Assembly: GCF_900188225.1 (NCBI RefSeq)
Contig: NZ_FZOC01000005.1
Coordinates: 1-64,000 of the forward strand
DNA length: 64,000 bases
From: Humidesulfovibrio mexicanus
Lineage (GTDB): Bacteria > Desulfobacterota > Desulfovibrionia > Desulfovibrionales > Desulfovibrionaceae
Reading direction: 5' to 3'
Under the pieces are notes generated by a model. It worked only from the letters and a program-made list of their open reading frames with translations. It was not told the origin of the DNA and ran no database searches. Positions 10,129 through 26,562 of the stretch are shown one piece after another (positions within the stretch are counted from its first letter, which is position 1; each line of letters opens with the position of its first letter). A program made the translations under genes and the position numbers.

Positions 10129-10305
10129 CTACTCCTTGCTCTTGGCGCTCTTGACAGGCGCGCCTTCGAGGACGTCGCCCTCGCGCAGGCGGCGGAGCCA
10201 GTACGTGGTCATCGCAACCTCGCGGCCTTCTGCGGGCAGAGGGGTCTTGGTGACAGGATCGCGCACGACGAGACCCGGTTTCGGAACAAGATATTTGACG
10301 GGCAT
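10129..10305 (-). CDS. DUF2635 protein (Mu gp38-like)
   Basis: A 58-residue protein found immediately upstream of the sheath in Mu-type phages. The sequence MPVKYLVPKPGLVVRDPVTK and then EGREVAMTTYWLRRLREGDV is the whole family signature. The start at 10305 has GAGGAG five bases upstream; longer readings of the frame run over gp37. Its precise function is not known to me. A role in joining the tail terminus or sheath is inferred only from position. Confidence 0.85.
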   Translation of the reverse strand: MPVKYLVPKPGLVVRDPVTKTPLPAEGREVAMTTYWLRRLREGDVLEGAPVKSAKSKE

Positions 10306-12999: not shown

Positions 13000-13404
13000 C
13001 TAGATGTTGATCCAGACGCCGAGGTCGTCAACGTCCACGATGACCCCGGCCTCGGACCTGGTGTTTGTGGCGCTGGTCTTGGCCACGGTGGCGTCGTCCA
13101 CGATGTAGGCCTTGGCCCCCACTTCGGAGAGCGTGACCTCGTCAGCGCCCGAGGAGTTGCCAAAGCGGAAGCAGCCGCGACGAACCTTGACCTTCGCGTC
13201 GCCGTCCTGGCCCAGGCTGTTGTCCACCTGCTCCTCGAAGCGGCCCACGCTCACAAGGCCGACCGCCGTGCTGCCGGGCTCGCAGGTGCCGGCGTTCATG
13301 ACGGCGAGGCCACCGGCGTAGCACTTCTTGCCGGCGGAGACGGGGTAGACGATCTCCTCCCCGGCGCGGATCGGGGTATTGCGGTCAGCGGTGAGGGCAG
13401 CCAT
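13000..13404 (-). CDS. Head decoration-type protein
   Basis: A 134-residue beta-rich protein starting MAALTADRNTPIRAGEEI with a GLVSVGRFEEQVDNS segment and a Val/Asp-rich C-terminal strand. It sits between scaffold and capsid, where many Mu-like phages encode a capsid cement or decoration protein (DUF2190-like). The ATG follows the stop of the protease gene with no gap (TAGATG), and GGAG lies within the upstream stop region. The function is inferred from position and size. Confidence 0.72.
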   Translation of the reverse strand: MAALTADRNTPIRAGEEIVYPVSAGKKCYAGGLAVMNAGTCEPGSTAVGLVSVGRFEEQVDNSLGQDGDAKVKVRRGCFRFGNSSGADEVTLSEVGAKAYIVDDATVAKTSATNTRSEAGVIVDVDDLGVWINI

Positions 13405-13992
13405 CTACTTCTCCTCCTTGCCGAGGGTTTTTGCGTAGTCCTTGGGATCGAGATCCAGGACCTTGCACATGGCCTGCTCAACATCCGTGAGCTTGGCCGC
13501 GCCGTCCGCGCCGACCTCGCGCTGGACGGTCTTGTCCGGGGCGATGACCGGGGCGGTGCCGAGGAACTTCTTGAACTCCTCCACGCCGCCCTGCTGGCGG
13601 CAGGCCGCCAGATAGAAATCCTTGGACGCCGGGGCCACCTTGCCGTCCTTCACGGCCTGGTCCACCAGCCCGTTGATCTCGGCCTCGGCCTGGGCGTCGG
13701 CCTGGGCCTTCAGCCTGGCTTCGGCGTCGTTGGCGCGGTTGGTGGCCAGCTCGTAGTCGGCCCTGGGCACGAAGCGGGTGAGGTCCAGGGATTGGGTCTT
13801 GAGGCCGCTCACGATCTGGACCGCGCTTTCGGGCGTTGCCGTCTCGGCCAGGCCCAGGGCGCGGCACAGGGCGACCGGCACGGCCGAGGTCTGCTCGGCC
13901 TTGGCCTTGAGGGAATTCGTGGCCGTGAGGATCTGGTCAGCGGTCGCGCCGTCGTCCAGCCCCAGGGCCTTTGCAATGAGCTTCAAAGGCAT
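13405..13992 (-). CDS. Internal in-frame scaffold protein (Mu gpZ-like)
   Basis: Within the protease gene an ATG at 13992 (MPLKLIAKALGLDD) is preceded by a strong AGGAGGA at five bases. This would give a 195-residue protein identical to the C-terminal half of the protease protein. It is helical and charged, with a central ARLKAQADAQAEAEINGLVD stretch, as expected for a capsid scaffold. In Mu the scaffold Z is made from an internal start in gene I. The same arrangement is inferred here from the ribosome site. Confidence 0.72.
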   Translation of the reverse strand: MPLKLIAKALGLDDGATADQILTATNSLKAKAEQTSAVPVALCRALGLAETATPESAVQIVSGLKTQSLDLTRFVPRADYELATNRANDAEARLKAQADAQAEAEINGLVDQAVKDGKVAPASKDFYLAACRQQGGVEEFKKFLGTAPVIAPDKTVQREVGADGAAKLTDVEQAMCKVLDLDPKDYAKTLGKEEK

Positions 13993-14460
13993 GTCGTCCT
14001 CCTGGTTGGAGTCTTGGGACTCGCGGTTTAAGGCCGTGAGCCGCAGGTTGGGAACGTTGGTGAGGCCGGCGGAGACCACCTCCGCGACGCGGCCGGAACT
14101 CTTCTGAAAGGTGAACACTGGGGAGATGTAGCGGTACTCGCGATTGCGGATCTGCTCGGCGGCGCGGGCGTTCCACTCCACCCGCGCCCACAGCTCGCCG
14201 CCACGGTCTTGCAGTTCACGAATCCAGCCGGATGCGGGGGCCTCCAGCCCGGCCGCGCCGCGCAACTCGGTGGCGTGCTCCCAGTCAATGACGAGGGGCT
14301 GCGCCCGGCGGGCGAAGGCGTTGAGCACGGAAACCATGCCGACTTGGTCGAAGAGCCAGCGGCGGCCGTCCACACCGACGACATCCGGACCGGCGGGCAG
14401 GAGCTGGATCCACTCGGGGGCGCTCGCGGGGAGTTCAGTGTTGAATGCTGTGTGCTTCAT
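13405..14460 (-). CDS. Head maturation protease with C-terminal scaffold (Mu gpI)
   Basis: A 351-residue protein with a phage I-type protease domain at about 1-150 (FNTELPASAPEWIQLLPAGP, the catalytic-region VIDWEHATELRGAAG, REYRYISPVF, and AGLTNVPNLRLTALN) and a helical scaffold domain at about 157-351. It would cleave scaffold and capsid during prohead maturation. The start has only a weak ribosome site and lies close to the predicted late promoter, so the mRNA may have a very short leader. It is the first gene of the second late operon. Confidence 0.9.
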   Translation of the reverse strand: MKHTAFNTELPASAPEWIQLLPAGPDVVGVDGRRWLFDQVGMVSVLNAFARRAQPLVIDWEHATELRGAAGLEAPASGWIRELQDRGGELWARVEWNARAAEQIRNREYRYISPVFTFQKSSGRVAEVVSAGLTNVPNLRLTALNRESQDSNQEDDMPLKLIAKALGLDDGATADQILTATNSLKAKAEQTSAVPVALCRALGLAETATPESAVQIVSGLKTQSLDLTRFVPRADYELATNRANDAEARLKAQADAQAEAEINGLVDQAVKDGKVAPASKDFYLAACRQQGGVEEFKKFLGTAPVIAPDKTVQREVGADGAAKLTDVEQAMCKVLDLDPKDYAKTLGKEEK

Positions 14461-14789
14461 GCCGCGAAGCTATGCTTCGGGCCGGGCCAGGTCTTGTAAC
14501 CGGCGTTACGACTTTTGGCGGGAGGGTAACCTGGACGAGGCGCGGCCTGCGGGTGATGTCAGAGGGCGTTCAAAAACGTTCAAAAACGCTCTCTGCGGCC
14601 TTGCGGCGGCGTTGCCGGGGAGTTGTGGCCTACGGGCGGCCCGACGCCGCATTGACGCCCTGGCGGCGAATGCCTATATGGGATTCAAGCGTAGCCCTCG
14701 AAGACTGGAAAACCGTCGGGCCAGTGGTTGCTTTCGAGCTTCCATGCGGGGGTGCCGGACACAAGATCCGGATGGCGTCCCGCCGAGGG
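14461..14789 (-). promoter_or_regulatory. 329-bp gap between the two late operons
   Basis: No convincing gene lies here. From left to right it holds the predicted late promoter (14461-14512), an imperfect inverted repeat AGAGGGCGTT...AACGCTCTCT at 14561-14594 whose loop contains two copies of CAAAAACG (terminator-like when read leftward), and a protein-like leftward stretch at about 14691-14789. That stretch is in frame with the F gene after its TAG stop and ends in WPDGFPVFEGYA. A 10-bp inverted repeat GTAGCCCTCG (14691-14700)/CGAGGGCTAC (14784-14793) spans it. Confidence 0.5.
14466..14515 (-). promoter_or_regulatory. Predicted late promoter of the head/tail operon with activator dyad
   Basis: The 20-mer ggtcttgtaaccggcgttac (14490-14509) contains the dyad GTAAC-CGGC-GTTAC (14496-14509) and occurs again at 22210-22229. 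CCTCCCGCC precedes both copies in the leftward reading. About 25 bases downstream is a -10-like CATAGCT, and no -35 is obvious, as expected for a Mor/C-activated promoter. Transcription would run left into the protease, capsid and tail genes. Confidence 0.68.
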
Positions 14790-16169
14790 CTACAGCTGAC
14801 CATCCAGCACCACCATCCCCTTCTGCTTCAGGTTGGCTTCCTGCACCCGCGATCCGCTCCGGACGGCGTTGGTGGGGACGCCCTTGGCCGAATGATCCAG
14901 GCGAACCACCACGCGGCCGAGCTTCTCCTGCTCCAGGTCAAGCACGTAGAGCAGGGCTTTGCGGCGTCCGGCACCATCCCAGATGACCGCCTTGGCCTTG
15001 GCCAAGTACGCAGGCAGGTTCAGCACCACCTCTTCGGGCAACGCCTTTTCCCCCTTGCGGGCCTCGGCCAGCAGGTGCGTCACCTCGCGCTGTTCGATGG
15101 TGAGCGCGGCCCCGGTCGGCAGCTCGCCGAGCTCAGCCAGCTTCTCCACGACTCTGGGCCGCATGGCCCCCACCACGCGCCGCCCACCGGCCCCAACGGC
15201 GTCGCCGCGCGCGATGCGCCGCGCCCATTCCCGATACTCGGCGTTGAGGTTGGCCAGCACCTCTGCGGGCATGTCCGCAGCCGCCGCCGCGCCCAGCTCG
15301 GTCGGCGCCGCGGCGACCTTCTCCGCCCACTGGCGGGCAGCCTGGCGCACGCGATAGGCCTCGCCGAAGTTGTAGTCGAAGCCGGGGTCGATCCCGACCG
15401 GCACCTGGCTCACTTCGCCCGTGCGGCGGTTTGTCCACTGCCGCGTGCGAACCTCCGGCGCGGCTGTGCGGACCGGCAGTGTGCGGCTGGTGAAGCGGCC
15501 GGTGGGCAGGCCGGACTCGGAATCGGTCTCTTGCACCTGCGCGCTCACACCGCTTTTCTCAAGCCGCGTGGCCTCTGCGCGCGAAACTTGGCGGACCCTG
15601 CATTTGCAGCCGTACCCGTTGGGCGGGTAGTGGCTACGCCAGAACGGATCATCCACGGGCAGCATGAGCCCGGCCCAGGCCGCGTGCTCCGGCCGGTGCT
15701 CACGCGAGGGGCCAAGTTCGTACAAGAGGAAGGGCAGCGCCCGCTTGGTGCGCTGGATGCGCTCCCACTGCCCGGCCGCGCGGGCCGTGCGCATGTTGGT
15801 GTCGTAGATAGTCTTGAGCCTGCGCGGGCTTCCCAGCTGCGCCATGCGTGTCTTGCCCGTCAGCGGATCCACGACCTCTCGCTTGCCCCACCAACCCTGG
15901 CGCTGGAGTTCCGGCTTCAAGTCCTTGGCGAAATCGCGGAAGGTGCGTCCCTCCGAGAGCGCCCGCTCGGCCGCATCGCTGATGCTGGAGAGCACGTCGA
16001 GCTGCATGGCCTTGGCCACGGTGAAGTTGGCCACATTTTCCTCGGCCCACACATCCTGGTAGCTGAAAGAAGGTTTCAGTCCCTTGGCGCGGAAGAACTC
16101 CAGCGCCTCCTTGGGAGGCGGACCGGGAAAGGTAAAGCCGGGCTTCGGCGTGAACTCTCGCCGTGGCAT
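14790..16169 (-). CDS. Mu F-like head morphogenesis protein with C-terminal PBECR-type domain
   Basis: A 459-residue minor head protein. Residues about 40-195 form the SPP1 gp7/Mu F domain, including the Cys/His-containing region HYPPNGYGCKCRVRQVSR (180-197). From about 355 to the end lies a separate domain (LNLPAYLAKAKAVIWDG, ALLYVLDLEQ, GRVVVRLDHS, NAVRSGSRVQEANL) that resembles the phage-type Barnase/EndoU/RelE-like (PBECR) domains fused to such proteins. That part is inferred from pattern. The start overlaps the portal stop (TGATG). It may be ejected with the DNA. Confidence 0.88.
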   Translation of the reverse strand: MPRREFTPKPGFTFPGPPPKEALEFFRAKGLKPSFSYQDVWAEENVANFTVAKAMQLDVLSSISDAAERALSEGRTFRDFAKDLKPELQRQGWWGKREVVDPLTGKTRMAQLGSPRRLKTIYDTNMRTARAAGQWERIQRTKRALPFLLYELGPSREHRPEHAAWAGLMLPVDDPFWRSHYPPNGYGCKCRVRQVSRAEATRLEKSGVSAQVQETDSESGLPTGRFTSRTLPVRTAAPEVRTRQWTNRRTGEVSQVPVGIDPGFDYNFGEAYRVRQAARQWAEKVAAAPTELGAAAAADMPAEVLANLNAEYREWARRIARGDAVGAGGRRVVGAMRPRVVEKLAELGELPTGAALTIEQREVTHLLAEARKGEKALPEEVVLNLPAYLAKAKAVIWDGAGRRKALLYVLDLEQEKLGRVVVRLDHSAKGVPTNAVRSGSRVQEANLKQKGMVVLDGQL

Positions 16170-17734
16170 CAGGAGCCGCTCCCCGCGTCACCCACGGCGC
16201 GCGCCTTGAACGTGGCCAGCGCCAGGGCTCGCACCAGGGCGGACGGATCCATCTTTTCCAGCAGGCCGGGCAGCCCGGCCAAGAAATCCTCATAGCTCTC
16301 GCAGCGGTCGGCCAACTCCTGGACGGGATCCACCACGACGCTGGCCTGTGGCTCCCAGTCGGCCAGGGCCTCCCCGGCGAACTCCTCAAGCTCCGCCCCC
16401 ATGTCGCCGCCAGTTGTGTACCCCTCGCGGTTCGCGGCGCGGCCCTCGTCGTTATCCTGTGCCGGTGTTTGCGCCGCGCCCAGCACCTCGGCACCATCCG
16501 CAGGATCGGGGAAGCCCAGGCGGTCGCGCACCACGGAGGCCTCCACGCGCAACCCCAGCGGCACCAGCTTGGCCAGGGCTTCGGTGAGTGCCTTCACGTC
16601 CTCGGCCTCGCGCACGGGCAGCACCAGCCGCGGGTATTTGCCGGAAGGCGGCGGACCGTAGTTCAGGTCGACGAAGGGGCGCACCAGGTCGCGGTTGATG
16701 GTGGCGGCGAGCTGACGCGCATCGGCCGTCAAGATGTCCTTGCGCACCTCGTTGTGGACCTTTGCTTGACCAAGGGAGCTGCCATCGTCGCTGGTCATGG
16801 TCTGGCCCAGCACGGCCTTGCTCACCTGCCGGTCCAGCCATTCCGCCAAGTTCTGGAACAGGATCTGCCCGCCGGAGGAACCGCCCTTGCCTCCATCAAC
16901 CATCTCAATCCGCATGGTGTCCGGAATCACGGCGGCGGCGTCCGTGCCCAGGTTGGCCACGGCGGAGACCAGCGTCCGGATGTCATCCGCAGAGGCGTTC
17001 GGGCCATAGCGCCCCAGCCGCAGCGGCATGCCGAATACCTCGGCAAAGGCCAGCCAGTCCGTGAGGGTGTAGCTTTTGCACATGTGCGCCGCCGCCACCA
17101 GACGGGCCAGGCCGCCGCGCGCGGGCAGGCCGCTCTTGAGCTTGGGCATGTGGACGAGGAACTTGAACGGAGGCAAGGGCAGGCCATCCACTGCGCCCAT
17201 ATCCTCCAGGCGCAGCTCGCGGCCGGTGACCTGGTCGAAGCGGAAGAACTTGGGGTCGCGCCATTCATAGGCGGCAGGAAGCCAACGCGTGGCCTGCCGG
17301 TTCCAGATGATCTCGCACGCGGCATAGCCCTTGCCCAGCCCGTCAAGCAGGTCGGTGCACAGGTCCGGAAACTCCGTGGACTCGGCGATATGCTCACGCA
17401 CGGCGTCGGCCAGCTCCACGTCGCGCTTGTCATCCGTGGCTGCGGCCACTGTGGGCTCCAAACCGGAGCAGGCGCGCTTACGGGTGCCGAGCACGGATTG
17501 GTAATGCGGGTCGCGCTCCTCCATCTCCTCGGCCAGGGTGAGGTATGCGCGCAGATCGCCTTCGGCCGCGGCGCGCAGAATCCTGGCTAGGCGATGCGGC
17601 GTCAGCCCCTGGGCGATGGCCTCCGGATCCCAGGCGCGGCGCACGCCGGTGAGCTGCGGTGCGGCCACCTCGCTCAGCAAAGTCTGCCGTTCGATTGGGC
17701 GGCCCAGGTGATCGACAAGGGTGACTGTTTTCAT
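16169..17734 (-). CDS. Portal protein (DUF935, Mu gp29)
   Basis: A 521-residue Mu-type portal protein forming the DNA entry ring. Key segments are TPHRLARILRAAAEGDLRAY, EEMEERDPHYQSVLGTRKRA and GKGYAACEIIW with YEWRDPKFFRFD in the clip/stem region, and QTMTSDDGSSLGQAKVHNEV. AGGAG lies five bases before the ATG. It sits eight bases downstream of the large terminase gene and overlaps F, as in Mu. Confidence 0.94.
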   Translation of the reverse strand: MKTVTLVDHLGRPIERQTLLSEVAAPQLTGVRRAWDPEAIAQGLTPHRLARILRAAAEGDLRAYLTLAEEMEERDPHYQSVLGTRKRACSGLEPTVAAATDDKRDVELADAVREHIAESTEFPDLCTDLLDGLGKGYAACEIIWNRQATRWLPAAYEWRDPKFFRFDQVTGRELRLEDMGAVDGLPLPPFKFLVHMPKLKSGLPARGGLARLVAAAHMCKSYTLTDWLAFAEVFGMPLRLGRYGPNASADDIRTLVSAVANLGTDAAAVIPDTMRIEMVDGGKGGSSGGQILFQNLAEWLDRQVSKAVLGQTMTSDDGSSLGQAKVHNEVRKDILTADARQLAATINRDLVRPFVDLNYGPPPSGKYPRLVLPVREAEDVKALTEALAKLVPLGLRVEASVVRDRLGFPDPADGAEVLGAAQTPAQDNDEGRAANREGYTTGGDMGAELEEFAGEALADWEPQASVVVDPVQELADRCESYEDFLAGLPGLLEKMDPSALVRALALATFKARAVGDAGSGS

Positions 17735-17742
17735 GGGTGCTC

Positions 17743-19110
17743 CTACAGGCTGCCGCGCCGGAAACCGGCAGTGATGCGGACGTTGCGGTCATGGGACTCG
17801 TCGTCCCGCTCATGGCTCGAAGTGGGGTTGCGGGGCACGCGGATGGAGCCGAAACGCTCCTGCTCCTGTGAGGCCGCGTTCACGGCCAGGAAACAGGCCC
17901 AAGCCCGGTCGGCGTGTCCCTCGGCATCGCTCTCCGCCACAAAGCGCGGGCTGCCCGTGGGGCCGACCACCCGCTGGAGCTTGTGCAGGTCCGCCCGTAC
18001 CTCTTTGTCGCCCAGGGGAATGCGGATGCGTTTGTCCTCGAAGGTTTCCTTGCCTGCCGTGGCCAGGGTGAGCTTGTTCGGGCCGGTGAACAGCACGCCC
18101 TCCACGCGCAAGCTGCCGTGCCGTGCCTTGGCGTCCTCCACGGGCTTTTCGCCCATGCCTGTCTGGTCCATGCCGCAACGAACGACGCGGTAACGCTCGA
18201 ACACGGCGTCGAGCAGGCGGTCCTGCTCGGCAAAGGGGATGCGCCGCCGGGCGATGATCTCCCGCGTCCAGAGCACGTCGCCCACGGCCTCCAGAACCCA
18301 GATGACGAACAGGTCGCGCCGCGCGCCGATGTCCACCCCCACAAAGCACGGCCCGCCCGCGTAGCCCTCCGGCTGTCCGGCGCGGTCATGCTCGCAGGTG
18401 TTGATCAGCTCGTAGGACAGCCAAGCCGAGGACTCGTCGAGCCATTGCAGCTCGAACTCCTGCAGCCAGGCGTCTTCGTCGCCGCAGCCCTCGCGCAGCT
18501 CGGCTATGTTGCGCTCCAGGCCTTCGGCAACGGCCTGGTGGATGTCCACGATGTGGCGGCTCCAGCGGTCGTTCTTGCCCGTGACCAGGTCGTAGAATTT
18601 GTTGCCCTTGCCGTTTGGCGTGCTGACCACGCGCAGCTTGAGACCGGGCTTGGAGATGACCGGGAAGAGCGCCTTCCAGATGGCGCGGGAATCCTTGTGG
18701 AAGGCGAATTCGTCGAGCAGCACGTTGGCCGAAAAGCCGCGCGCCGTGTCCGGATTGGCCGGCAGGGCGGTGACGCGGGAGCCGTGGCGCATGATGACCT
18801 CAAGGGCCTTGATGCTGGAGCCGTCCTCGTAGCGATAGCCGGAGTCGCCCTCCACGGCCTCGAAGGCCGCGCCCATGGCCCGCAAATGCAGCTTGAGCCC
18901 TTCGTCCATGGCCTCCTTGGCCTGGCGTTCCCCGCGCGAAAGGATGACCCAGCGCGTGCGCGTGCCGGCCACGTCGTGGGCCAGGATGTCCTCGGCGATC
19001 TCCAGGGTGTTGGTGAACGTCTTGCCCGTCTGGCGGGCGAACATGCCCACCTTGAAGCGCGCGGGATCGTCGATCCAGCGGCGCTGGAACGGGTACAGGA
19101 TACCGCTCAT
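17743..19110 (-). CDS. Terminase large subunit (Mu gp28)
   Basis: A 455-residue packaging motor and nuclease. The Walker A-type RQTGKT is at 26-31 and Walker B VLLDE at about 130-134. The RNase-H-like nuclease domain begins with FVGVDIGARRD (Asp at about 260) and continues CGMDQTGMGEKPVEDA. In transposable phages it packages integrated copies headful, with host DNA at the ends. The start overlaps the small-subunit stop (ATGA). Confidence 0.95.
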   Translation of the reverse strand: MSGILYPFQRRWIDDPARFKVGMFARQTGKTFTNTLEIAEDILAHDVAGTRTRWVILSRGERQAKEAMDEGLKLHLRAMGAAFEAVEGDSGYRYEDGSSIKALEVIMRHGSRVTALPANPDTARGFSANVLLDEFAFHKDSRAIWKALFPVISKPGLKLRVVSTPNGKGNKFYDLVTGKNDRWSRHIVDIHQAVAEGLERNIAELREGCGDEDAWLQEFELQWLDESSAWLSYELINTCEHDRAGQPEGYAGGPCFVGVDIGARRDLFVIWVLEAVGDVLWTREIIARRRIPFAEQDRLLDAVFERYRVVRCGMDQTGMGEKPVEDAKARHGSLRVEGVLFTGPNKLTLATAGKETFEDKRIRIPLGDKEVRADLHKLQRVVGPTGSPRFVAESDAEGHADRAWACFLAVNAASQEQERFGSIRVPRNPTSSHERDDESHDRNVRITAGFRRGSL

Positions 19111-19685
19111 GCTTCGCCCCGATAGATGGCCCGGACGCGCTCCAGCACCTGCTCCGGCGTGAGGGCGGCGTCGCGCTTGGCCTCGCCCGTGGCCGCATCA
19201 ACGGCCTTGTCCAGCTTGGCCTCGGCGTCCTTGCGGGCCTGCTCGCGGATCTTGCCGATCAGCTCGGCGTCGGCCTTGCTGGCGCGCGAAAGATGGTCGA
19301 GCGCCTTGCCCAGCAGCATGGCGCCCTGAGGGTCCAGGGCGACGGACTTGGCATCCTCTCCCCCTTCGCCGTCCTCGTTGATCTTGAGCAGCAAGTCGAG
19401 GATCGCGCCGTGCATCAGCTCCACGTTGAGCCGCGTGGTCTTGGACTCCGGGGCCGCTCCCAGCTTGGTGATGAGCGCCTCGGCCACTTCGCGCGAACGG
19501 CGCAGCTTCTCGCCCACCTTGTCCAGGTGCTGCTTGTAGCGGCCCAGGGCCGAGCGGGAGACCTCCGCGCCCAGCTGGCGCAGATGCTCGGTGATCTCCG
19601 TGAGGGTGCGGCCCTGCTCAAGGAGCGCGCCGATCTGCTCGCGCAGCTCCGGCGGCAGGCGCTTGACTGTGGACTTGCGCGGCAT
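19107..19685 (-). CDS. Terminase small subunit (DUF3486, Mu gp27)
   Basis: A 192-residue DNA-recognition subunit of the terminase. The N-terminal PRKSTVKRLPPELREQIGAL with LTEITEHLRQLGAEVSRSAL forms the HTH, followed by a helical oligomerisation region and a charged Lys/Ala-rich C-terminus (EAKLDKAVDAATGEAKRDA). It overlaps the large subunit by four bases and lies three bases downstream of the gp26-like gene. Confidence 0.92.
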   Translation of the reverse strand: MPRKSTVKRLPPELREQIGALLEQGRTLTEITEHLRQLGAEVSRSALGRYKQHLDKVGEKLRRSREVAEALITKLGAAPESKTTRLNVELMHGAILDLLLKINEDGEGGEDAKSVALDPQGAMLLGKALDHLSRASKADAELIGKIREQARKDAEAKLDKAVDAATGEAKRDAALTPEQVLERVRAIYRGEA

Positions 19686-19688
19686 GGC

Positions 19689-19988
19689 CTACGCCTCCGG
19701 CTCTGGGCGTTTGACGCCGGGCACAGTGGCGCGACCGGCGGCCACGTCCAGGCCGCGCGCGGTGAGCGTGGCCACGGTGATGCCGGAGCTCCGGCCAATG
19801 GTCAGCAGACCAAGCTCGGCCAGCCAGGCCAGGTCGCCCTCCAGCTTGTCCATGGCCACAGTGTGGCCCATGGCCTCCAAGGCCGGGCGCAGCACGTAGG
19901 CGTTGGCGCGGTAGCCGGGGTCTTCGGTCAGCACGCGCAGAATGACCAGGCGGCGGTCCTCGTTCAACAGGCGTTCAAAGCTGTTCAC
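19689..19988 (-). CDS. Mu gp26-like winged-helix protein
   Basis: A 99-residue protein with a winged-helix look: DRRLVILRVLTEDPGYRANA, then LRPALEAMGHTVAMDKLEGD and LAELGLLTIGR. Genes of this type lie between gp25 and the small terminase in Mu-like phages. It may bind DNA, but its role is unknown to me. It is separated by one base from the gp25-like gene. Confidence 0.82.
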   Translation of the reverse strand: MNSFERLLNEDRRLVILRVLTEDPGYRANAYVLRPALEAMGHTVAMDKLEGDLAWLAELGLLTIGRSSGITVATLTARGLDVAAGRATVPGVKRPEPEA

Positions 19989-19989
19989 G

Positions 19990-20376
19990 CTACCTCCTCA
20001 AATGGTGTTCCATGAGCAGGGACACCTGCCTCGACATGGCGTGCTGCTGATCCTTGAGCCCCTGGATCATCGCGGTCAGAGCCTTGATCTCCCCGCGCAA
20101 GGTCTCGTCGGCCTTGTCCACCTCGGCCAACTTGTCTTTGGGCGCGGCCTGGGACACGGCCTGGTGCAGCTCACCGCTGCTGGCCTCCTGTTTGCCGAGC
20201 CGCTCGTCGACCTGTTTGCGGCAGACCTTGCGGCAGTCCTCGCATTCCTCGCGGGTCATGAACTTGCGCACGAGCATCCACAGGACGATGGTGCCCACGC
20301 ACTGCACCACGGCCCCAAGCATGGAGAACACTTGCAGCCAAGGCCCGAGGGCGTTGCCGATGTCGGCGATGTTCAC
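19990..20376 (-). CDS. DUF2730 membrane-anchored coiled-coil protein (Mu gp25)
   Basis: A 128-residue protein with one membrane segment at about 12-36 (PWLQVFSMLGAVVQCVGTIV), a Cys-containing CEDCRKVCRKQ motif at about 45-55, and a C-terminal coiled coil (about 70-120). It matches the DUF2730 family found after the lysis genes in Mu-like phages. Its start overlaps the Rz-like stop. The function is unknown. A membrane-associated role in lysis or head assembly is only positional inference. Confidence 0.82.
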   Translation of the reverse strand: MNIADIGNALGPWLQVFSMLGAVVQCVGTIVLWMLVRKFMTREECEDCRKVCRKQVDERLGKQEASSGELHQAVSQAAPKDKLAEVDKADETLRGEIKALTAMIQGLKDQQHAMSRQVSLLMEHHLRR

Positions 20377-21014
20377 GGGCGGGCCTCCTGGTCATCAGTG
20401 GTTCTTGGCAGCCCCAGCGCCCACTCGCGCAGGGCCAGGTACTTGGCCGTGGTGTCGCGGCAGATGCGGGCGTTGTCGCGGTTGACGGCTAGCACATCCT
20501 CCGGCGTCACTCCGCCTTGTTGAAACTCCCCGGCTTGAGCGGCCGGTAGGCTTCCGGCTTCTCCGTCAGGGCCGGGGGCGGAGGCGGCACCGGCTGGATC
20601 ACCGTGGCCGAAGCCCCAGGCTTCGTTGTACAGCCCCACCCACTCATGGCCAAAAGTGCAGCGGCCATCAGCAACAGCAACAGATTGCGACGCATGGGCT
20701 ATCCTTTGGTTTGTGATTGCGCGGCCCTGGGCCGCAATGGTTGCGCGGGCCGTGGCCAGGTCTTCGGCCAACTGATCGCGGCGGATGATCTCGGCATCCA
20801 CGATGCGCCGGGCCGTGTCGCTGGCCAGGCGGTTGGCATCCGCTTGCGTCTGGCGCAGCTCGGCCAAAGCCTTGTCGCCCCCGGCCTTTGCCGTGGCGTG
20901 GCCGTAGCGGTAGCCGCCCCAGGCGCAGGCCAGGCAGAGCAGCAGCACGGCGAGCGCGCCGCCAAGGCCCAGGGCCAGCTTGACGGCGGGTTTGGTGAGG
21001 TCGAGGGGGATCAT
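20373..21014 (-). CDS. Rz-like inner-membrane spanin
   Basis: A 213-residue i-spanin candidate. It has an N-terminal membrane segment (about 10-32, LALGLGGALAVLLLCLACAW) followed by a long helical periplasmic domain with Ala/Arg/Gln-rich coiled-coil sequence (about 45-110). The start at 21014 overlaps the transglycosylase stop as ATGA and has GAGG at seven bases. A lipoprotein gene is nested in its 3' half in another frame, the classic Rz/Rz1 arrangement. Together they would fuse inner and outer membranes at lysis. Confidence 0.85.
   Translation of the reverse strand: MIPLDLTKPAVKLALGLGGALAVLLLCLACAWGGYRYGHATAKAGGDKALAELRQTQADANRLASDTARRIVDAEIIRRDQLAEDLATARATIAAQGRAITNQRIAHASQSVAVADGRCTFGHEWVGLYNEAWGFGHGDPAGAASAPGPDGEAGSLPAAQAGEFQQGGVTPEDVLAVNRDNARICRDTTAKYLALREWALGLPRTTDDQEARP
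20507..20695 (-). CDS. Rz1-like outer-membrane spanin lipoprotein nested in Rz
   Basis: A 62-residue proline-rich lipoprotein wholly inside the Rz-like gene in a different frame. It has a signal sequence (MRRNLLLLLMAAALLAMSGW), a cysteine at 22 preceded by GWG (a weak lipobox), then PVPPPPPALTEKP. Size, Pro content and nesting fit Rz1. The lipobox is less canonical than usual (tryptophan at -2), so lipidation is likely but not certain. Confidence 0.82.
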   Translation of the reverse strand: MRRNLLLLLMAAALLAMSGWGCTTKPGASATVIQPVPPPPPALTEKPEAYRPLKPGSFNKAE

Positions 21015-21685
21015 TGTGCGACCTCGCAGAGTATGCCCGGCCCCCACACTAGGTACCTGGATTGACGCCGGAGCAGGATTTGTCTGGGATAGTCCGTATT
21101 TTCGCGCTTCGCGGCGATGGACCGCCCGGCGTTGACGCTGGCGACGTGCTCCCAGCGGCCGGAGTCCAGGCCCTTACGCTTGGCCAGCGCCTGGTCACGC
21201 TGCACCCAGCCGAGGCCGCCGTTGTAAGCGGCCAGGGCCATGGCCCAGGCATCACACGGGGTGGCGGCGCGGATGCGCTTGAGCTGCGCCAGGTCGTAGG
21301 CCACCAGGGCGCGGATGGCCCAGCCGGGGTTGAAGGGTTCCGCCGGGCCGAGGTCCGGGCGGTTGCGGCCCATGTCCGCCGCCGTGGATGGCATAAACTG
21401 TCCCAGGCCACGCGCGCCCACAGGCGAGACGGCTTGCCGGTTCCACCCGGACTCCTGTTCGATTTGAGCCGCGAACACGGCCACCGGGGCGGCAAGGCCC
21501 GCCTCCGCGCGCGCGGCGCGGATGATCTGGCCGCGGTACTTGAGGGCGGCTGCGGGGATGCGCTCGGCGGCATGGGCGCGGGCCTGCAGGGAAAACACCA
21601 CAAGGAGGACCACGCAGCCCCCCCATAACGAGATAAGGACCAACTGCAGCAGCTTGAGGTAGGGGTCGGTATCGTACTCGTCCAT
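21011..21685 (-). CDS. Membrane-anchored lytic transglycosylase (phage endolysin)
   Basis: A 224-residue SLT-type muramidase. After a hydrophobic N-terminal segment (about 11-34), the catalytic domain shows QIEQESGW (Glu 78, Ser 79), GARGLGQFMPSTA and MALAAYNGG, all signature elements. The uncleaved-looking N-terminal helix suggests a signal-anchor-release type endolysin. An in-frame GTG twelve bases upstream is open, but the ATG at 21685 is closer to the GGGGGGAG purine tract. It sits between the holin candidate and the spanins. Confidence 0.9.
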   Translation of the reverse strand: MDEYDTDPYLKLLQLVLISLWGGCVVLLVVFSLQARAHAAERIPAAALKYRGQIIRAARAEAGLAAPVAVFAAQIEQESGWNRQAVSPVGARGLGQFMPSTAADMGRNRPDLGPAEPFNPGWAIRALVAYDLAQLKRIRAATPCDAWAMALAAYNGGLGWVQRDQALAKRKGLDSGRWEHVASVNAGRSIAAKRENTDYPRQILLRRQSRYLVWGPGILCEVAQ

Positions 21686-21697
21686 TTCTCCCCCCAC

Positions 21698-22069
21698 CTA
21701 CAGCGCCAGGGCCACGGCCAACATGCAGGCGCAGATGATGGCCGCGCGACGCGCGCACGCAATCAGGAATGGCAACTCACAGCCGAGGGCGAAACCGTAG
21801 TCCGGCTTGTCATCCTCGAAATTGTCCACGTTGCGCCAGTCGACGCGGAGGTATCCGCTGGGCTTGGCGTAGGGGAAGGCTGCAACGTCGAGGAGGTAGC
21901 CCAGGCAGCCGCCAGCGGCCACGCCGCCGAGCTTGTACATGAGGACCGGGGCTTGGTGCGGCGCCATGGCCGCCACAATCAGCAAAAGCGCGGTGGCCAA
22001 CAGGTTGGGCAGGGTCATGCGCGGGGACTTGCGGCGCAGCCAAGCGGACAGGGACTTGAGCGTGTTCAT
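21698..22069 (-). CDS. Candidate holin (three membrane segments)
   Basis: A 123-residue membrane protein, first gene of the lysis cassette. Hydrophobic segments lie at about 21-36, 43-62 and 100-121. The loop between the last two carries YLRVDWRNVDNFEDDKPDYG, a sequence I associate with Mu-type phage holin-like proteins. The ATG at 22069 has GGAGG at six bases. A longer reading from 22171 lacks a ribosome site and is arginine- and proline-rich. Holin function is inferred from topology and position. Confidence 0.72.
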   Translation of the reverse strand: MNTLKSLSAWLRRKSPRMTLPNLLATALLLIVAAMAPHQAPVLMYKLGGVAAGGCLGYLLDVAAFPYAKPSGYLRVDWRNVDNFEDDKPDYGFALGCELPFLIACARRAAIICACMLAVALAL

Positions 22070-22174
22070 TTTGCCTCCGCGTTCGCCTCTCCCCTTTGCC
22101 CCGCCACCGGCCGGGACCATCCAGACCGGCGGCGGAGCGCGACAAGGAGAAGCGTCAATCGCGCGGTTCACGCG

Positions 22175-22235
22175 CGTGCGAAGGCCACACTAGGCGGGTG
22201 GCGAGGCCGGGTCTTGTAACCGGCGTTACTATCGG
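22175..22235 (-). promoter_or_regulatory. Predicted late promoter of the lysis/packaging operon with activator dyad
   Basis: The second copy of ggtcttgtaaccggcgttac (22210-22229), with dyad GTAAC-CGGC-GTTAC at 22216-22229 and CCTCCCGCC upstream in the leftward sense. A -10-like CCTAGTGT lies about 24 bases downstream. The leader before the holin would be roughly 110 bases. Both late operons would thus be switched on together, presumably by the Mor homologue at 33584-33964. Confidence 0.68.
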
Positions 22236-22264
22236 CGGGAGGGGCCGGAGGCTAGAAACGGCAA

Positions 22265-22285
22265 GGGCCGCCCAAAGGGCGGCCC
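22265..22285 (-). terminator. Hairpin separating the cargo genes from the late promoter
   Basis: GGGCCGCCC-AAA-GGGCGGCCC is a perfect 9-bp stem with a three-base loop. It lies just past the stop of the nuclease gene and upstream of the late promoter. Only a weak T-rich stretch follows, so it is terminator-like rather than canonical. Confidence 0.55.
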
Positions 22286-22299
22286 GGAGAGAGGAGACA

Positions 22300-22842
22300 T
22301 TAGTTAGATGGCTGCAACCATGGTTTGGAGTGCTTCTTGTGTTTGCGCCATGACGAAAGATACTTCCGGGCCAACTCAGGGGACTCGACAATTAAAAGAT
22401 TTTCGGCGTTTCGAGTCTCCGCAGACTTGGTGAAGTTGTAGCTTCCCGTAATTACGATCCTGCGGTCCAGCACCATAACTTTGTTGTGGGCAATGGCGTG
22501 TCGGCTATCAATATAAACCGGGATTCCCGCCTCGGCGAGGGCTCCGGCCTTTGTGCCACGTGCCTTGCGCTGGCTTCTGTCCAAGATGGCCTCAACATGG
22601 ACACCACGATCGGCAGCGGCCAAAAGGGCAGAGGCTATCTCCGGGGAAGTGAACCCATACGCCTGCACGAAGATGGATTTGCGTGCCTGCTCGATATGCC
22701 GGAGCAAGGCTTGCTGCGCCCCGCCACGCGGGCTAAAATAGACTTCCGCCGAAGTGTCGTGAAATACAACCTCGGCGGCTAACGCCTGTGAGGGCAACCA
22801 AACCACGAGGAACAGAGTAAATAGACGAGTGGAGAAGGGCAC
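22300..22842 (-). CDS. Secreted phospholipase D-family nuclease (Nuc-like), prophage cargo
   Basis: A 180-residue protein with a signal peptide (about 1-22, ending ALA) and a single PLD domain. The HKD motif reads HNKVMVLD followed by ITGSYNFTKSAETRNAEN, which matches the small Nuc-type endonucleases that act as dimers with one HKD each. Export would place it in the periplasm. It lies leftward between the late promoter and the repressor, outside the core phage modules. Its base composition is visibly lower in GC than the flanking genes, suggesting separate acquisition. It may degrade incoming DNA or nucleic acid outside the cytoplasm. Confidence 0.88.
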   Translation of the reverse strand: MPFSTRLFTLFLVVWLPSQALAAEVVFHDTSAEVYFSPRGGAQQALLRHIEQARKSIFVQAYGFTSPEIASALLAAADRGVHVEAILDRSQRKARGTKAGALAEAGIPVYIDSRHAIAHNKVMVLDRRIVITGSYNFTKSAETRNAENLLIVESPELARKYLSSWRKHKKHSKPWLQPSN

Positions 22843-22926
22843 GGCATCACTCCGGTGCGGCTAACATATCCACCACGGGATGACCTAAGCGGCCAGCGCG
22901 GGGAAGATGGTGGTGGGATGAGGCGG

Positions 22927-23406
22927 CTAGTCTCGGATATCGACGATGAAATCCTGGTCGGCTAGGGCTGCTGGCCGATCAAAGAACAAAGACTGGCAAG
23001 GTTCTTTGGGCACGATCAGGGCTGTGCCGTCCGCGTCGATGCCAATCCGACAGACATGCCCGTGCGCCCTATACTTCCCAGGCACCAACTGGTTCTCGTC
23101 TTTTACCTGGAATACCAGCCACGTCACCTGAGGCCAATCTGGCAGGTGCGTCCCGGCTCCAACGTGATACGGTCGGTCCGGCTCCACCTGCTGGAATTCC
23201 AGCGCTGACCAATACTTCACCAGCCCTGGGCAGTGCGCCTCTATCTTCGGTAGCACCCGGCGCAGTAGCTCGACAGTGTGCGGTGGCGTGTCTGACGGCA
23301 GGGTCATCGTCAGATTTTTTTGCTCTTTTTCATCAACGCCACAACCAGATACCCCACAAAATACTAGTAGAAGAACCAGGGCAGAAACAGCTTGCACACC
23401 CTTCAC
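22927..23406 (-). CDS. Hypothetical lipoprotein, prophage cargo
   Basis: A 159-residue predicted lipoprotein: signal sequence MKGVQAVSALVLLLVFCGVS and lipobox VSGC (Cys at 22). The mature part has no family I recognise. It contains VTWLVFQVKDENQLVPGKYR and a GHVCRIGIDADG segment with two further cysteines. It lies between the nuclease and repressor genes on the same strand, so it could be expressed in the lysogen. A role in superinfection exclusion is speculative. Confidence 0.72.
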   Translation of the reverse strand: MKGVQAVSALVLLLVFCGVSGCGVDEKEQKNLTMTLPSDTPPHTVELLRRVLPKIEAHCPGLVKYWSALEFQQVEPDRPYHVGAGTHLPDWPQVTWLVFQVKDENQLVPGKYRAHGHVCRIGIDADGTALIVPKEPCQSLFFDRPAALADQDFIVDIRD

Positions 23407-23426
23407 GCCCTCCCTCCTCCAGCTAC

Positions 23427-23789
23427 TCAGCCAACTTTTTTCTTCCCGGCGCTGGATTGCGCCAACAAAGCACCCATCGTTTCCAAGTTCCGTTGCGCGT
23501 CGTCCGGGCAGTGCCGGTAGTTGTCAAGCAGCGCCGCCTCGCGGGGGGTGAGCTTGATCGACGGCAAGTCCCCATCCCCAAGGAGCAGCCAACTGCCGTC
23601 AACCCCGAATTCAGCAACAATCGTTTTTAAAAAATCAGCGTCCGGCTGCCGCTCCCCCTTCTCGTAGCGGATCAAAGTCATTCGGCTTACCCCCAGGAGG
23701 ACGGCAAAATCCTCCTGCCGCATCTCCCCACGGATAAACGCAATGCGACCGCCAATGGTGTCGAGAGAGAGAATCTTTTTTTGAATCAT
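23427..23789 (-). CDS. HTH repressor of the prophage (CI-like)
   Basis: A 120-residue XRE-type regulator. The HTH occupies about 10-60 (IRGEMRQEDFAVLLGVSRMT, then YEKGERQPDADFLKTIV), followed by VDGSWLLLGDGDLP and a short helical tail. No peptidase domain is present, so it is not a RecA-cleaved repressor. It is divergent from the early genes, as expected for a lysogeny repressor. Starts at 23795 or 23789 are possible; both have weak ribosome sites, and the upstream frame lies in the operator region. It probably binds the palindrome at 23812-23827. Confidence 0.82.
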   Translation of the reverse strand: MIQKKILSLDTIGGRIAFIRGEMRQEDFAVLLGVSRMTLIRYEKGERQPDADFLKTIVAEFGVDGSWLLLGDGDLPSIKLTPREAALLDNYRHCPDDAQRNLETMGALLAQSSAGKKKVG

Positions 23790-23803
23790 ACCCATTCGAG
23801 AGC

Positions 23804-23832
23804 TTGACAAAGTAACCATTTGGGTACATCGT
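23804..23832 (+). promoter_or_regulatory. Early promoter with overlapping operator
   Basis: A consensus TTGACA (23804-23809) is followed by a -10-like TACATC (23825-23830, short spacer) or CATCGT (23827-23832). The spacer holds the imperfect palindrome GTAACCATTTGGGTAC (23812-23827, 12 of 16 symmetric). An ATACCCATT on the repressor side forms an inverted copy of its right half. This is where the repressor, the Ner-like protein, or both would act. Confidence 0.6.
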
Positions 23833-23892
23833 CTGACCAACACACATTCGGCACACGCCCACACACTTACTAGCCACAAAGGGAATTACCGT

Positions 23893-24120
23893 ATGATTCC
23901 GAGAACCTCCCAGGACGTGAAAAAGGAATTTGAGCGCAAGGGCATCTCCGTTGCTTCTTGGGCCAGGGCCAATGGCTTCGAGACCAACCTGGTCTTCGAA
24001 GTTCTCTCTGGCCGCAAGAAAGGTGTGCGCGGTCAGAGCCACAAGATCGCCGTGAAGCTGGGTCTCAAGGCGGGCGAAATCATCGAGGACCATGACATCG
24101 CCACCGCCATCAACATGTAG
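23893..24120 (+). CDS. Ner/Cro-like DNA-binding protein
   Basis: A 75-residue protein with the sequence type found as first early gene of many Mu-like phages: VKKEFERKGISVASWARANG followed by VFEVLSGRKKGVRGQSHKIA. The HTH is at about 18-60. It would down-regulate early and repressor promoters after induction. It starts about 65 bases after the early promoter. The ribosome site is weak (GGGA). Confidence 0.82.
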   Translation: MIPRTSQDVKKEFERKGISVASWARANGFETNLVFEVLSGRKKGVRGQSHKIAVKLGLKAGEIIEDHDIATAINM

Positions 24121-24173
24121 GGCGAACTCCATGCGGCTTGGCAATCTTCTACACGGCGGCGCGGGGGTGTGCA

Positions 24174-24623
24174 ATGTCTAAGCGCACGCCCAATCTTGCC
24201 CCTGGGATGGTGCAACTCACCCTTCCCTTGTCAAGCCTGCCCTCGCAAAAGCTGAAAGCTGGCTCACTGCGTACGTCCGAGACCGTCAAGGAGGCCCTGC
24301 GCCAGGCGCTGCGCTCCTGCGGACTCTCCCGCGAGACCGTGGCCGACGAGCTGACCCGCCTCACCGGAGAGAACGTCTCCATCCATCAGATCAACAACTG
24401 GACGTCCACCGCCAAGGAGGACCGGTCCATCCCGCTGGAGCAGCTCGCGGCCCTCACCATCGTAACCGGTGACGCCGGGCTGGCGCGCGCCGCGCTGGAG
24501 TGCTCCGGGTGGAGCGTGCTGGCCCCGGAGCAGCACGCCTACTACGAGCTGGGCCGCATGACCGCCGAGGACCGCACGCGCCACCGGAAGAAGCGCGATC
24601 TGCTGGAACGCATCAAGGCCTAG
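24174..24623 (+). CDS. Early phage protein of unknown function with helical DNA-binding look
   Basis: A 149-residue basic protein. A central segment LRQALRSCGLSRETVADELT followed by ENVSIHQINNWTS resembles a small HTH such as that of phage regulators, and a later region reads VTGDAGLARAALECSGW. I know related sequences in other Mu-like prophages but no function. The start at 24174 is preferred over one 12 codons upstream because family-type sequence begins there. Confidence 0.7.
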   Translation: MSKRTPNLAPGMVQLTLPLSSLPSQKLKAGSLRTSETVKEALRQALRSCGLSRETVADELTRLTGENVSIHQINNWTSTAKEDRSIPLEQLAALTIVTGDAGLARAALECSGWSVLAPEQHAYYELGRMTAEDRTRHRKKRDLLERIKA

Positions 24624-24632
24624 GAGGACGAC

Positions 24633-24938
24633 TTGAAAGACAACACCATCTCATCCGCCCGCCGCGCGCTGCGCGTGCTCAAGATCCTCAAGGGGCACAC
24701 CATCACCGGGATCTCGAACAAGGAGATCTCCGAGTCCCTTGGCGAAAGCCCCGTGAACGTGAGCCGCGCCCTGGCAGAGCTTGAGGCCGAGGGCCTGGCC
24801 ACAAAGCTGGACAACGGCCGCTGGGCCCACAGCGTGGCCATGCTGCAGATATCCGCCGCGCACACCGCCCATATGGCCAGCTTGCAAGACCGCATGTCCG
24901 AGATCAACCAACGCGTCGCCGCAGGGGCAACGCGCTAA
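24633..24938 (+). CDS. IclR-type winged-helix early protein
   Basis: A 101-residue protein with an N-terminal winged helix (SARRALRVLKILKGHTITGI, NKEISESLGESPVNVSRALA, LDNGRWAHSVAM), like the DNA-binding half of IclR regulators without the effector domain. Translation starts at TTG, supported by AGGAGG five bases upstream. It may regulate early genes or assist replication. Confidence 0.78.
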   Translation: MKDNTISSARRALRVLKILKGHTITGISNKEISESLGESPVNVSRALAELEAEGLATKLDNGRWAHSVAMLQISAAHTAHMASLQDRMSEINQRVAAGATR

Positions 24939-24962
24939 CACGACAAGCGACAAGGAGAAACC

Positions 24963-25196
24963 ATGACAGCGCCAGAGACCATCAAGACCGACAACGGAAA
25001 GAGCTTTCTATCCAAAACCTTCGGGGAGTTGCTTGGCGAGCTAAACGAGCGGGGCTCCGGGACTCTCTCGTTCACGAGGGGCGATGGCGGGGCGCTGGCT
25101 CTGCTGACCACAGACCCTCGCATGATCGAGATTCTTGAGCGCCTGCGTGAGTTGGCTACGCCGCTGCACGAGGAGGACGACCATGCAGGAAATTAG
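24963..25196 (+). CDS. Small early protein of unknown function
   Basis: A 77-residue acidic protein with SFLSKTFGELLGELNERGSG and a C-terminal helix ending HEEDDHAGN. AAGGAG lies six bases before the ATG. It overlaps the next gene by 14 bases, suggesting coupled translation. I recognise no family. Confidence 0.65.
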   Translation: MTAPETIKTDNGKSFLSKTFGELLGELNERGSGTLSFTRGDGGALALLTTDPRMIEILERLRELATPLHEEDDHAGN

Positions 25197-26562
25197 CATC
25201 GAACGCCTCCACGCCATTCTTGAAAGTGAGGCCGTCATGGACGTGATCCATGACCTTGGCAGGAATCCGGCCATCAAGCCCGTCCTGGCGGACCGCGCCC
25301 ACGAGGCGCTCCAGGTCGCGGCAGAGTTGGCCGAAAACGCCAAGAAAGACCTCTCGGACGAGGCCCTGACAGGCATCGCCATCGCCGCCGTGCGGAGCAT
25401 AGACCCCGAACAGGACGAGTATCATTTGCATCACGTCCTCGTCAGTTGGCTCGGCCCCGACAATGTGCCGAACAACCAGCGGTTCTCCTGGGAACCCAAG
25501 GGCAAGCCCGGCAAGATGAATCTGGCCACCCCGCCGGCCTTTGATCCTAACAAGGCTTCCATGGTCGGCGACCCGTCCGCGTGGCGCGAAGGCCTGAAGA
25601 ACGGCCCGAACGTTGGCCGGATTGAGGCCATCCCCGACATCACCCCAGAGCGCAGCGCGGAGCTGCTGCAGACGCAGAACACCATGGCGGTAGCCGACCA
25701 GGCCGTGATGGACATGGCCCCTGTGTCCGAGGCTCTGGGGCGCATCAAGGCCGCCGAATTCTTTCGACACGTCGGAGATATTATCGTCGCGCAGACCTTC
25801 GTCGACCTTCGCAACTCAAAGAGATACAAGGACTACCCAATTAAGGACGCGGAGGGAAACCTTCGACGCTGTCAGAACTTTGAGGAGTTCTGTCAGCTCG
25901 CGTTCGGCAAGTCCTATACGCGCTGCTACGAACTCTCAAAGAATCTGCACCTCCTCGGCCCGGACCTCTACGAGTCCGCCGAGCGTATCGGCTTCAAGGC
26001 CCGCGACTACGCCGCCCTCAAGGCCCTGCCCGAGGCCGAGCAGGAGATCGTCAAGACCGCCCTGGCCGCAGAAAGCAAGGAGCAGGTGCTGGACATCCTG
26101 CAAGACCTGGCCGCCCGGCACCAGAGCGAACGCGCCGCCACCAAGAAGCAGACCGAGGACATGAAGGCCGACCTGGACGCCCGCGACAAGCTCTTGGCCG
26201 ACAAGAGCGAGCGCCTCGACAAGATCAGCATGGAGCTGGAGAAGCTCAAGAGCCTGCCCGCGAACAAGCGCGAAGTGCTGCGCCTGGAGCAGGAGCAAGC
26301 CGCCGCCAAGAAGCTGACCACCGCCGTGATGGAGGCACAGGCCGCCGTCAATGCCTTCCTCGTGCAGCTGGCCGAGATCAAGGAGGCCGAGGTCAGCGCC
26401 TACACCAAGGAGCACGCGGACCATACCGCCTCGTGGTTCTGCCAGCAGGTGCAGTACGCGCTGCAAGAGAACGGCATTCAGGCGGACATGGCGGAAATCA
26501 TGCTGCCCGAATGGATGCGCGACCAGGCCAAGCAAAGCCCGGTGGACCAGGAGGGCAGGTAG
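25183..26562 (+). CDS. Large early protein with coiled coil, function unknown
   Basis: A 459-residue protein, one of the largest early products. Residues about 195-290 (GDIIVAQTFVDLRNSKRYKD, FEEFCQLAFGKSYTRCYELS, then RIGFKARDYAALKALP) resemble DUF3102/ParB-like helical DNA-associated regions. About 305-400 is a long coiled coil. A conserved-looking C-terminus includes TASWFCQQVQYALQENGIQA. AGGAGG lies six bases before the ATG at 25183. The position before the transposase suggests a replication or host-control role, but this is unproven. Confidence 0.7.
   Translation: MQEISIERLHAILESEAVMDVIHDLGRNPAIKPVLADRAHEALQVAAELAENAKKDLSDEALTGIAIAAVRSIDPEQDEYHLHHVLVSWLGPDNVPNNQRFSWEPKGKPGKMNLATPPAFDPNKASMVGDPSAWREGLKNGPNVGRIEAIPDITPERSAELLQTQNTMAVADQAVMDMAPVSEALGRIKAAEFFRHVGDIIVAQTFVDLRNSKRYKDYPIKDAEGNLRRCQNFEEFCQLAFGKSYTRCYELSKNLHLLGPDLYESAERIGFKARDYAALKALPEAEQEIVKTALAAESKEQVLDILQDLAARHQSERAATKKQTEDMKADLDARDKLLADKSERLDKISMELEKLKSLPANKREVLRLEQEQAAAKKLTTAVMEAQAAVNAFLVQLAEIKEAEVSAYTKEHADHTASWFCQQVQYALQENGIQADMAEIMLPEWMRDQAKQSPVDQEGR

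Follow-up and report, generated by a model that had tools for sequence, protein, structure and literature searches.

Paired dyads at two predicted late promoters of a Mu-like prophage of Humidesulfovibrio mexicanus, and a predicted leaderless mRNA for its gene I homologue

The two 20-mer copies and the genes behind them

We examined a stretch of 64,000 nucleotides (nt) from Humidesulfovibrio mexicanus (contig NZ_FZOC01000005.1 of assembly GCF_900188225.1, positions 1 to 64,000; hereafter the window), which holds a Mu-like prophage and, within it, two exact copies of the 20-mer GGTCTTGTAACCGGCGTTAC, at 14490-14509 and 22210-22229. The late operons are both encoded on the minus strand; read in that direction, each copy is GTAACGCCGGTTAC-AAGACC and contains a dyad with perfect 5-bp arms (14496-14509 and 22216-22229). 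Copy 1 stands before the head/tail operon, whose first gene is a gene I homologue (head protease/scaffold, 351 aa, 13405-14460, minus strand; PF10123 E=7.4e-73; phrog_328), with the major head protein gene gpT further downstream. Copy 2 stands before the lysis/packaging operon, which begins with a holin gene (21698-22069, minus strand; PF13272 E=2.4e-27), its longest open reading frame (ORF) starting from GTG 22171 and its probable ATG, at 22069, lying behind GGAGG; a spanin gene follows, and after it the packaging genes for a gp27-like terminase small subunit, the terminase large subunit, portal and gpF (14790-19685, minus strand; phrog_426). When Mu gene order is compared, the places of the holin and gene I promoters are those of Mu Plys and PI, and we use these names here. 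An earlier sequence-only reading of this DNA had likewise put the two copies at the heads of these operons.

That reading had also noticed the 20-mer at no other place, which held up, and had said that its scatter through the host chromosome would tell against a regulatory role; no such scatter was seen. No third copy was found in the window at 3 mismatches or fewer (0.01 expected), and a scan of the whole genome (3,523,644 bases) at the same tolerance returned the same two places only. The exact dyad GTAACNNNNGTTAC (GTAAC-N4-GTTAC) was likewise confined to them genome-wide, compared with 6 matches to a backward control pattern. The genome was also searched for a further late site, comparable to Mu PP, with the same 20-mer or dyad; none was seen, the search covering identical words and not divergent ones. 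Because the window has three other pairs of exact 20-mer repeats, repetition by itself is not decisive; what is decisive for this pair is its position and its conservation. The upstream element CCTCCCGCC, reported as shared by the two copies, is indeed present at both, but it lies 7 nt from one dyad and 4 nt from the other and was not seen upstream of gene I in the near relatives L006, L012, L013, L041, L042, L043 and L046; it was dropped from the element and is probably incidental.

At each site a -10-like hexamer on the minus strand follows the dyad at equal spacing, 31 nt from the dyad centre to the start of the hexamer, giving a predicted -10 of PI, TAGCTT (14467-14472), and a predicted -10 of Plys, TAGTGT (22187-22192), with a predicted Plys start at about 22180. 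The single promoter-like pair from a sigma70-type scan of 13000-26000 was at 23047, plus strand, and neither dyad had one; the shared -10 without a -35, also part of the sequence-only reading, was thus recovered at both promoters. The PI -10 ends 6 nt before the gene I ATG at 14460, which is the earliest possible start of its frame, with none in-frame upstream, and which is preceded by TAGCTT-CGCGGC (TAGCTTCGCGGC), that is, by no Shine-Dalgarno (SD) sequence. The usual distance from a -10 to the transcript start is 6-7 nt. The predicted RNA start is therefore the A of the gene I AUG (14460, minus strand), from which the dyad centre lies at -42.5 (-43.5 for the Mu element), and the gene I mRNA of the window is predicted to be leaderless, a point absent from the sequence-only reading. 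The Plys mRNA, in comparison, would carry a leader of about 110 nt, since the likely holin ATG lies behind GGAGG.

A candidate activator is encoded at the other prophage end on the opposite strand (33584-33964, plus strand, 126 aa), and its proposed identity as a Mor homologue was borne out by PF08765 (E=7.7e-29, 100 bits), by phrog_532, and by solved relatives that include Mor 1rr7 and C 9l0x and 9vw8. The phage that holds the two sites thus also encodes a Mor/C-family protein. Three Mor-family matches (E up to 0.001) were found in the genome, one on the prophage contig and two on other contigs; no separate C protein was found on the prophage contig, which with its one Mor-family match does not show the two activators in series of a Mu-type Mor-to-C cascade. 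As position 1 of the window is also the end of the contig and falls within the late operon, the contig may lack the prophage's right end. Mor at the opposite prophage end is the layout of phage B3. Scanning viral contigs with the window's Mor recovered a single contig, identical over Mor.

Other features lie near the two promoters. Upstream of Plys there is a minus-strand ORF (22300-22842; phrog_12711), and a G+C-rich hairpin, seen by eye, separates it from the promoter. Overlapping CGTTCAAAAACG repeats (14567-14588) lie some 105-130 nt before gene I and contain the only two occurrences of CGTTYNNRAACG in the window; by eye, palindromes of a similar kind (GTTCATGAAC or GTTTATAAAC) stand in this gap in near relatives too. 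The window repeats are a possible equivalent of the gyrase site that is annotated between G and I in the Mu record.

Matched operator words in related phages

The sequence-only reading had proposed a scan of related phages for the dyad. Fourteen sequences of the nearest clade were scanned for TAACNNNNGTTA at no more than 1 mismatch with a -10 at the right spacing, and near relatives keep the dyad and the -10, mostly at both promoters. The window, L013, L073, L075, L079 and L085 (the last with one mismatch) had one site at gene I and another about 7.5-8 kb upstream of it, the shared word being a TAAC-N4-GTTA core plus the -10; being palindromic, the L075 sites match on both strands. L070 and L071, which belong to a single genome as separate contigs, had sites at the same two places plus two extra matches each, one of the L071 extras being the exact core. 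L012 and L006 had the gene I site only, their sequences ending 7.6 and 6.3 kb upstream respectively. L108 and L109 (flanks) had no site, and L081, a broken prophage in the same genome, had an unrelated match only. Mor was matched in 11 of the 12 genomes searched (G178 gave no match); in G219, G224, G031, G145 and G020 it was 18-20 kb away from gene I and oppositely oriented, and in G237 and G243 it was on a contig separate from gene I, while G003, G030, G034 and G205 were without the 18-20 kb opposite-strand layout.

For the wider family gene I was found in 368 of 370 loci, the viral-contig part of the sample being the best 80 of 433, 518 and 492 relatives. A first test took 30 phages that had a dyad call and 6 kb or more of upstream sequence; a same-strand second copy with a -10 was found in 15 of them, against a mean of 1.05 (maximum 4) in 20 trials with letter-permuted dyads. 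A pair rule was also applied, which required, near gene I, a -10 and a word with 3 or more of its 5 arm pairs palindromic, and also a second copy 3-13 kb upstream with at most 1 of 10 arm letters changed and its -10 again within a 5-nt range; it was run on 192 of the 368 loci, redundant ones included, with the 3-4 kb loci and those having less than 5.5 kb upstream left out. A matched pair was present in 39 of the 192, versus 0-4 in seven shifted control windows, and at the strictest score there were 19 pairs versus 0. The redundancy filter (less than 60% ungapped identity, over 95 nt for pairs and over 80 nt for gene I starts) reduced these to 25 phages, the window phage (L011) included, with pair spacings of 6.4-10.6 kb; since the filter keeps related phages, the family counts are not independent events. 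One of the 25, L082, is a chance pair, which is counted among them and in the -10/ATG distances given below and was left out of the inverted-repeat test.

The words themselves vary by phage (GTAAC, ATAAC, CTGAA, CGGAA, CGGAC, ATAAA, GTGAA, GCGAA, TTCAA and others). Each such phage has a private word common to both of its late operons, as would be expected if one private activator served both. A strict 5-4-5 palindrome test at one fixed offset gave a top fraction of 0.056 of 160, and is a weak test, since start calls are noisy and the offset differs by 2-3 nt. By eye, the gene I dyad of the CGGAC/CTGAC-type phages L019, L064, L086 and L052 lies within a G+C-rich hairpin with a T-rich stretch behind it, as though the activator site also served to terminate the upstream operon.

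The half-site was compared with the Mor recognition helix in 27 distinct combinations, from 19 loci and 8 clade members, leaving out L082, L167, pairs scoring less than 6, gapped helices and duplicate combinations. Helix distance was correlated with half-site distance (Mantel r=0.58, p=0.0002), and in 25 of the 27 the half-sites of the phage with the nearest helix differed by no more than 2 of 10 letters (on permutation, 7.8 on average and 19 at most); the six residues that precede the helix gave r=0.28, p=0.004. By eye, TAAC goes with tyrosine in the Mor helix (...YRI... or ...YKI...), TGAA mostly with tryptophan (...RxVWxIL; the exceptions being L275 with tyrosine and L320 with phenylalanine), and GGAA with arginine at the same helix position. 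The same genome holds a second Mu-like prophage (G000:C4, L082), with the word CTGAACCCCTTCAT upstream of gene I and a different Mor helix; given the differing word and helix, the two co-resident prophages appear to use different operator words.

The -10, the gene I start and the inverted repeat

The pair-defined -10 is placed by the dyad, independently of the ATG. At the 25 pair-defined PI promoters the first in-frame start followed the -10 by 6 nt (13 phages), 7 (7), 8 (2), 9 (1), 52, and 96 (the chance pair L082), so that in 23 of the 25 it lay 6-9 nt away, and all 23 of these starts were ATG. At Plys of the same 25 the distance was 6-8 nt in 11 (one a GTG) and 15-83 nt in the rest. For a wider count, 64 of the 368 loci were dropped (for want of an ATG, of an upstream stop or of 150 nt) and the remaining 304 reduced to 160 non-redundant gene I starts; a -10-like hexamer lay 6-8 nt before the ATG of the longest ORF in 49 of them (26 of the strict form TANNNT), compared with 11.9 in base-shuffled sequence. 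Such a close hexamer was rare at control genes (1/64 terL, 1/108 portal, 3/110 gpF, 3/161 gpT). SD-like motifs preceded 6 of the 49 gene I starts with a close -10 and 44 of all 160, as compared with 79/108 for portal and 144/161 for gpT.

Named phages were inspected by eye. In DMS3 (L394) an in-frame gene I ATG lies at locus position 11926, which is 19037 in the record, after CACCAT and behind a TTGAACCCCTTC word, the annotated protease start being 126 nt downstream at 12052; at the head of its lysis region an unannotated 115-aa ORF (3150-3497), beginning at 10261 of the record, follows CACGAT, again behind a TTGAACCCCTTC word. Both of these upstream starts (11926 and 3150) look leaderless. 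In B3 (L398) an in-frame ATG (19887) lies 7 nt after CACTCT, and the annotated CTG (19857) is 30 nt upstream of it. At Mu PI 12 nt separate CATGAT and the ATG, so Mu PI would have a leader of 5-6 nt. The open-access literature, searched by titles and abstract openings and without the 1989 Mu S1-mapping papers, gave no report on late promoters of Mu-like or transposable phages or on late mRNAs of theirs that lack a leader.

The -10 is often bracketed by an inverted repeat. In the window it reads CGAAGC-ATA-GCTTCG at PI (14465-14479, minus strand; entered as L011 in the family set), and a weak repeat, GCCAC-N9-GTGGC, is seen at Plys (22184-22202, minus strand). L013 reads by eye CGACGC-ATA-GCGTCG where the window has its PI repeat, a two-sided change, and Mu itself has inverted repeats of 7 bp at PI and 5 bp at Plys around the -10. 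Stems of at least 6 ending within 3 nt of the gene I ATG were found at 32 of the 160 starts, versus 1.4 in dinucleotide shuffles; when 5' arms were swapped among phages, with positional composition kept, 31/160 fell to a mean of 4.3 (maximum 9 in 200). At 48 pair-defined promoters, stems of at least 5 surrounded the -10 in 25 (PI 11/24, Plys 14/24), versus a swapped-arm mean of 7.6 (maximum 14 in 300), and stems of at least 6 in 15, versus 0-5 when the windows were shifted by 20-60 nt. The repeat is thus absent from about half of the promoters, and it was present at 18 of 34 leaderless and 7 of 14 leadered promoters (Fisher p=1.0). We prefer the guess that it may affect opening of the -10 region, because Mu C acts on the closed-to-open step at Plys, PI and PP (PMC4461284).

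Interpretation, rivals and meaning

The arrangement resembles known systems in several respects. The Mor element at Mu Pm has no -35 and a 5-bp inverted-repeat dyad centred at -43.5 (PMC4390567), and the two window sites likewise have no -35 and a 5-bp-arm dyad near -43, beside a Mor-family activator (PMC4390567; PMC4287176). Mu Plys and PI with C (PMC4461284) share with the window the same downstream genes, one activator for several late promoters, and an inverted repeat at the -10; Mu, however, has four late promoters, a separate C and a short PI leader, whereas the window phage has two sites and no C was found. Pseudomonas phage B3 has Mor at one end and early genes divergent from the late ones, and by eye its in-frame protease ATG comes 7 nt after CACTCT, with a dyad that reads TTTTCGG-TCCG-CCGAAAA; it differs in its dyad word, in giving no pair by the automatic rule, and in its annotated CTG start 30 nt upstream. 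In Alteromonadaceae phage B23 gene I and the lysis region have, as in the window, matched dyads (CTGAA-N4-TTCAG); at both B23 promoters the ATG follows the -10 by six nt, and the half-site differs from that of the window. The lambda cI mRNA made from PRM is leaderless, with its AUG at the 5' end and no SD sequence. The window prediction is alike in this; here, though, it concerns activator-dependent late structural genes across a phage family.

We consider it highly probable that the 20-mer copies serve as operators for both late promoters of the prophage, which a single Mor drives, and that the gene I mRNA is leaderless. The sites, the -10 spacing, the gene content, the conservation of the pair, the helix/half-site association, the lack of a gene I SD sequence and the near-fixed distance from -10 to AUG were all computed here, and from them we infer Mor binding, activation, the transcript starts and leaderless translation. 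The single Mor homologue would be made from the early operon; a Mor dimer would bind GTAAC-N4-GTTAC, replacing a -35 element, and let host sigma70 RNA polymerase open the -10 located 31 nt from the dyad centre. Plys would start the lysis/packaging operon with a leader, and PI would start the head/tail operon at the gene I AUG and so give a leaderless mRNA. The proposal of the sequence-only reading that one Mor homologue could drive both operons gains support from the phage-specific dyads of relatives, from the association of helix and half-site and from the Mu-like spacing.

Several observations weigh against this. The Mu Pm Mor site has a 6-bp spacer and the window dyad a 4-bp spacer, and TAGCTT and TAGTGT are weak as -10s. 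Mu Mor is inactive on late promoters and C inactive on Pm, Mor serving the middle promoter and C the late ones (PMC4287176), and in the window phage Mor would act on late promoters; that its late circuit uses one protein is inferred from gene content. By the pair rule 153 of the 192 loci have no pair, and a fitting pair was found in B23 alone of six named phages, MuM16-2 giving misplaced matches only and DMS3, martha, B3 and Mu none. L083 has the gene I site alone despite 18 kb of upstream sequence, a miss. Shared ancestry may be a partial cause of the helix/half-site association, the residues before the helix showing a weaker correlation of their own. For the leaderless start, 111 of the 160 gene I starts have no close -10, gene I of L017, L023 and L027 has a ribosome site, and SD-like motifs are scarce at two control genes as well (terL 19/64, gpF 47/110).

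Other explanations share part of this evidence. Mor could drive both promoters while the translated gene I mRNA is not leaderless, being started several nt upstream or made by read-through from the packaging operon; the leader that Mu PI itself would have and the SD sequence before gene I in some relatives speak for this, but we judge it quite improbable given a -10 to AUG distance of 6-9 nt at 23 of 25 pair-defined promoters, exactly 6 in 13, the scarcity of SD-like motifs where gene I has a close -10 (6 of 49), and a window ORF with no earlier in-frame start. The inverted repeat could instead act in RNA, where a hairpin formed over the start codon by read-through would block translation, so that late genes would be translated only from late-promoter mRNAs. 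Its 3' arm does often end no more than 3 nt from the gene I ATG and depends on a matching 5' arm, yet the repeat is equally frequent at leadered and leaderless promoters, which fits a promoter role at the DNA level better. Such a translation gate was our first reading of the repeat; it is no longer favoured, for that same reason, and appears somewhat unlikely.

A dyad near -35 could also be the operator of another protein, such as a phage repressor or host factor regulating both operons. Against it stand the lack of a -35 at either dyad, half-sites that change with the Mor recognition helix among phages, and a dyad spacing that fits the Mu Mor element (PMC4390567), and we regard it as very doubtful. 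To a chance or recombination repeat with no regulatory role we give almost no credence: the window does have its other 20-mer pairs, but both copies of this one head an operon and have the same distance to the -10, and the pair persists in relatives whose words differ.

Returning to operators read by a single Mor, we hold in even balance a broader proposal, that in many Mu-like phages a private Mor/operator pair and a repeat-bracketed -10 start RNA at the AUG, that head (and often lysis) genes are translated only from those mRNAs, and that co-resident prophages would thereby be insulated from each other. As far as our searches go, the phage-private Mor/operator pair that tracks the helix, the leaderless gene I prediction and the matched-arm repeat at many -10s are new. 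One paired repeat has become a family-wide prediction, with a matched operator word in 25 non-redundant Mu-like phages, and the 27 helix/half-site combinations are a start on a Mor/C recognition code. The repeat around the -10 stands at the kind of promoter where Mu C reportedly acts on open-complex formation. The leaderless prediction would explain doubtful or missing starts in public records, namely those of the DMS3 and B3 proteases and of the DMS3 lysis region, whose leading ORF is unannotated.

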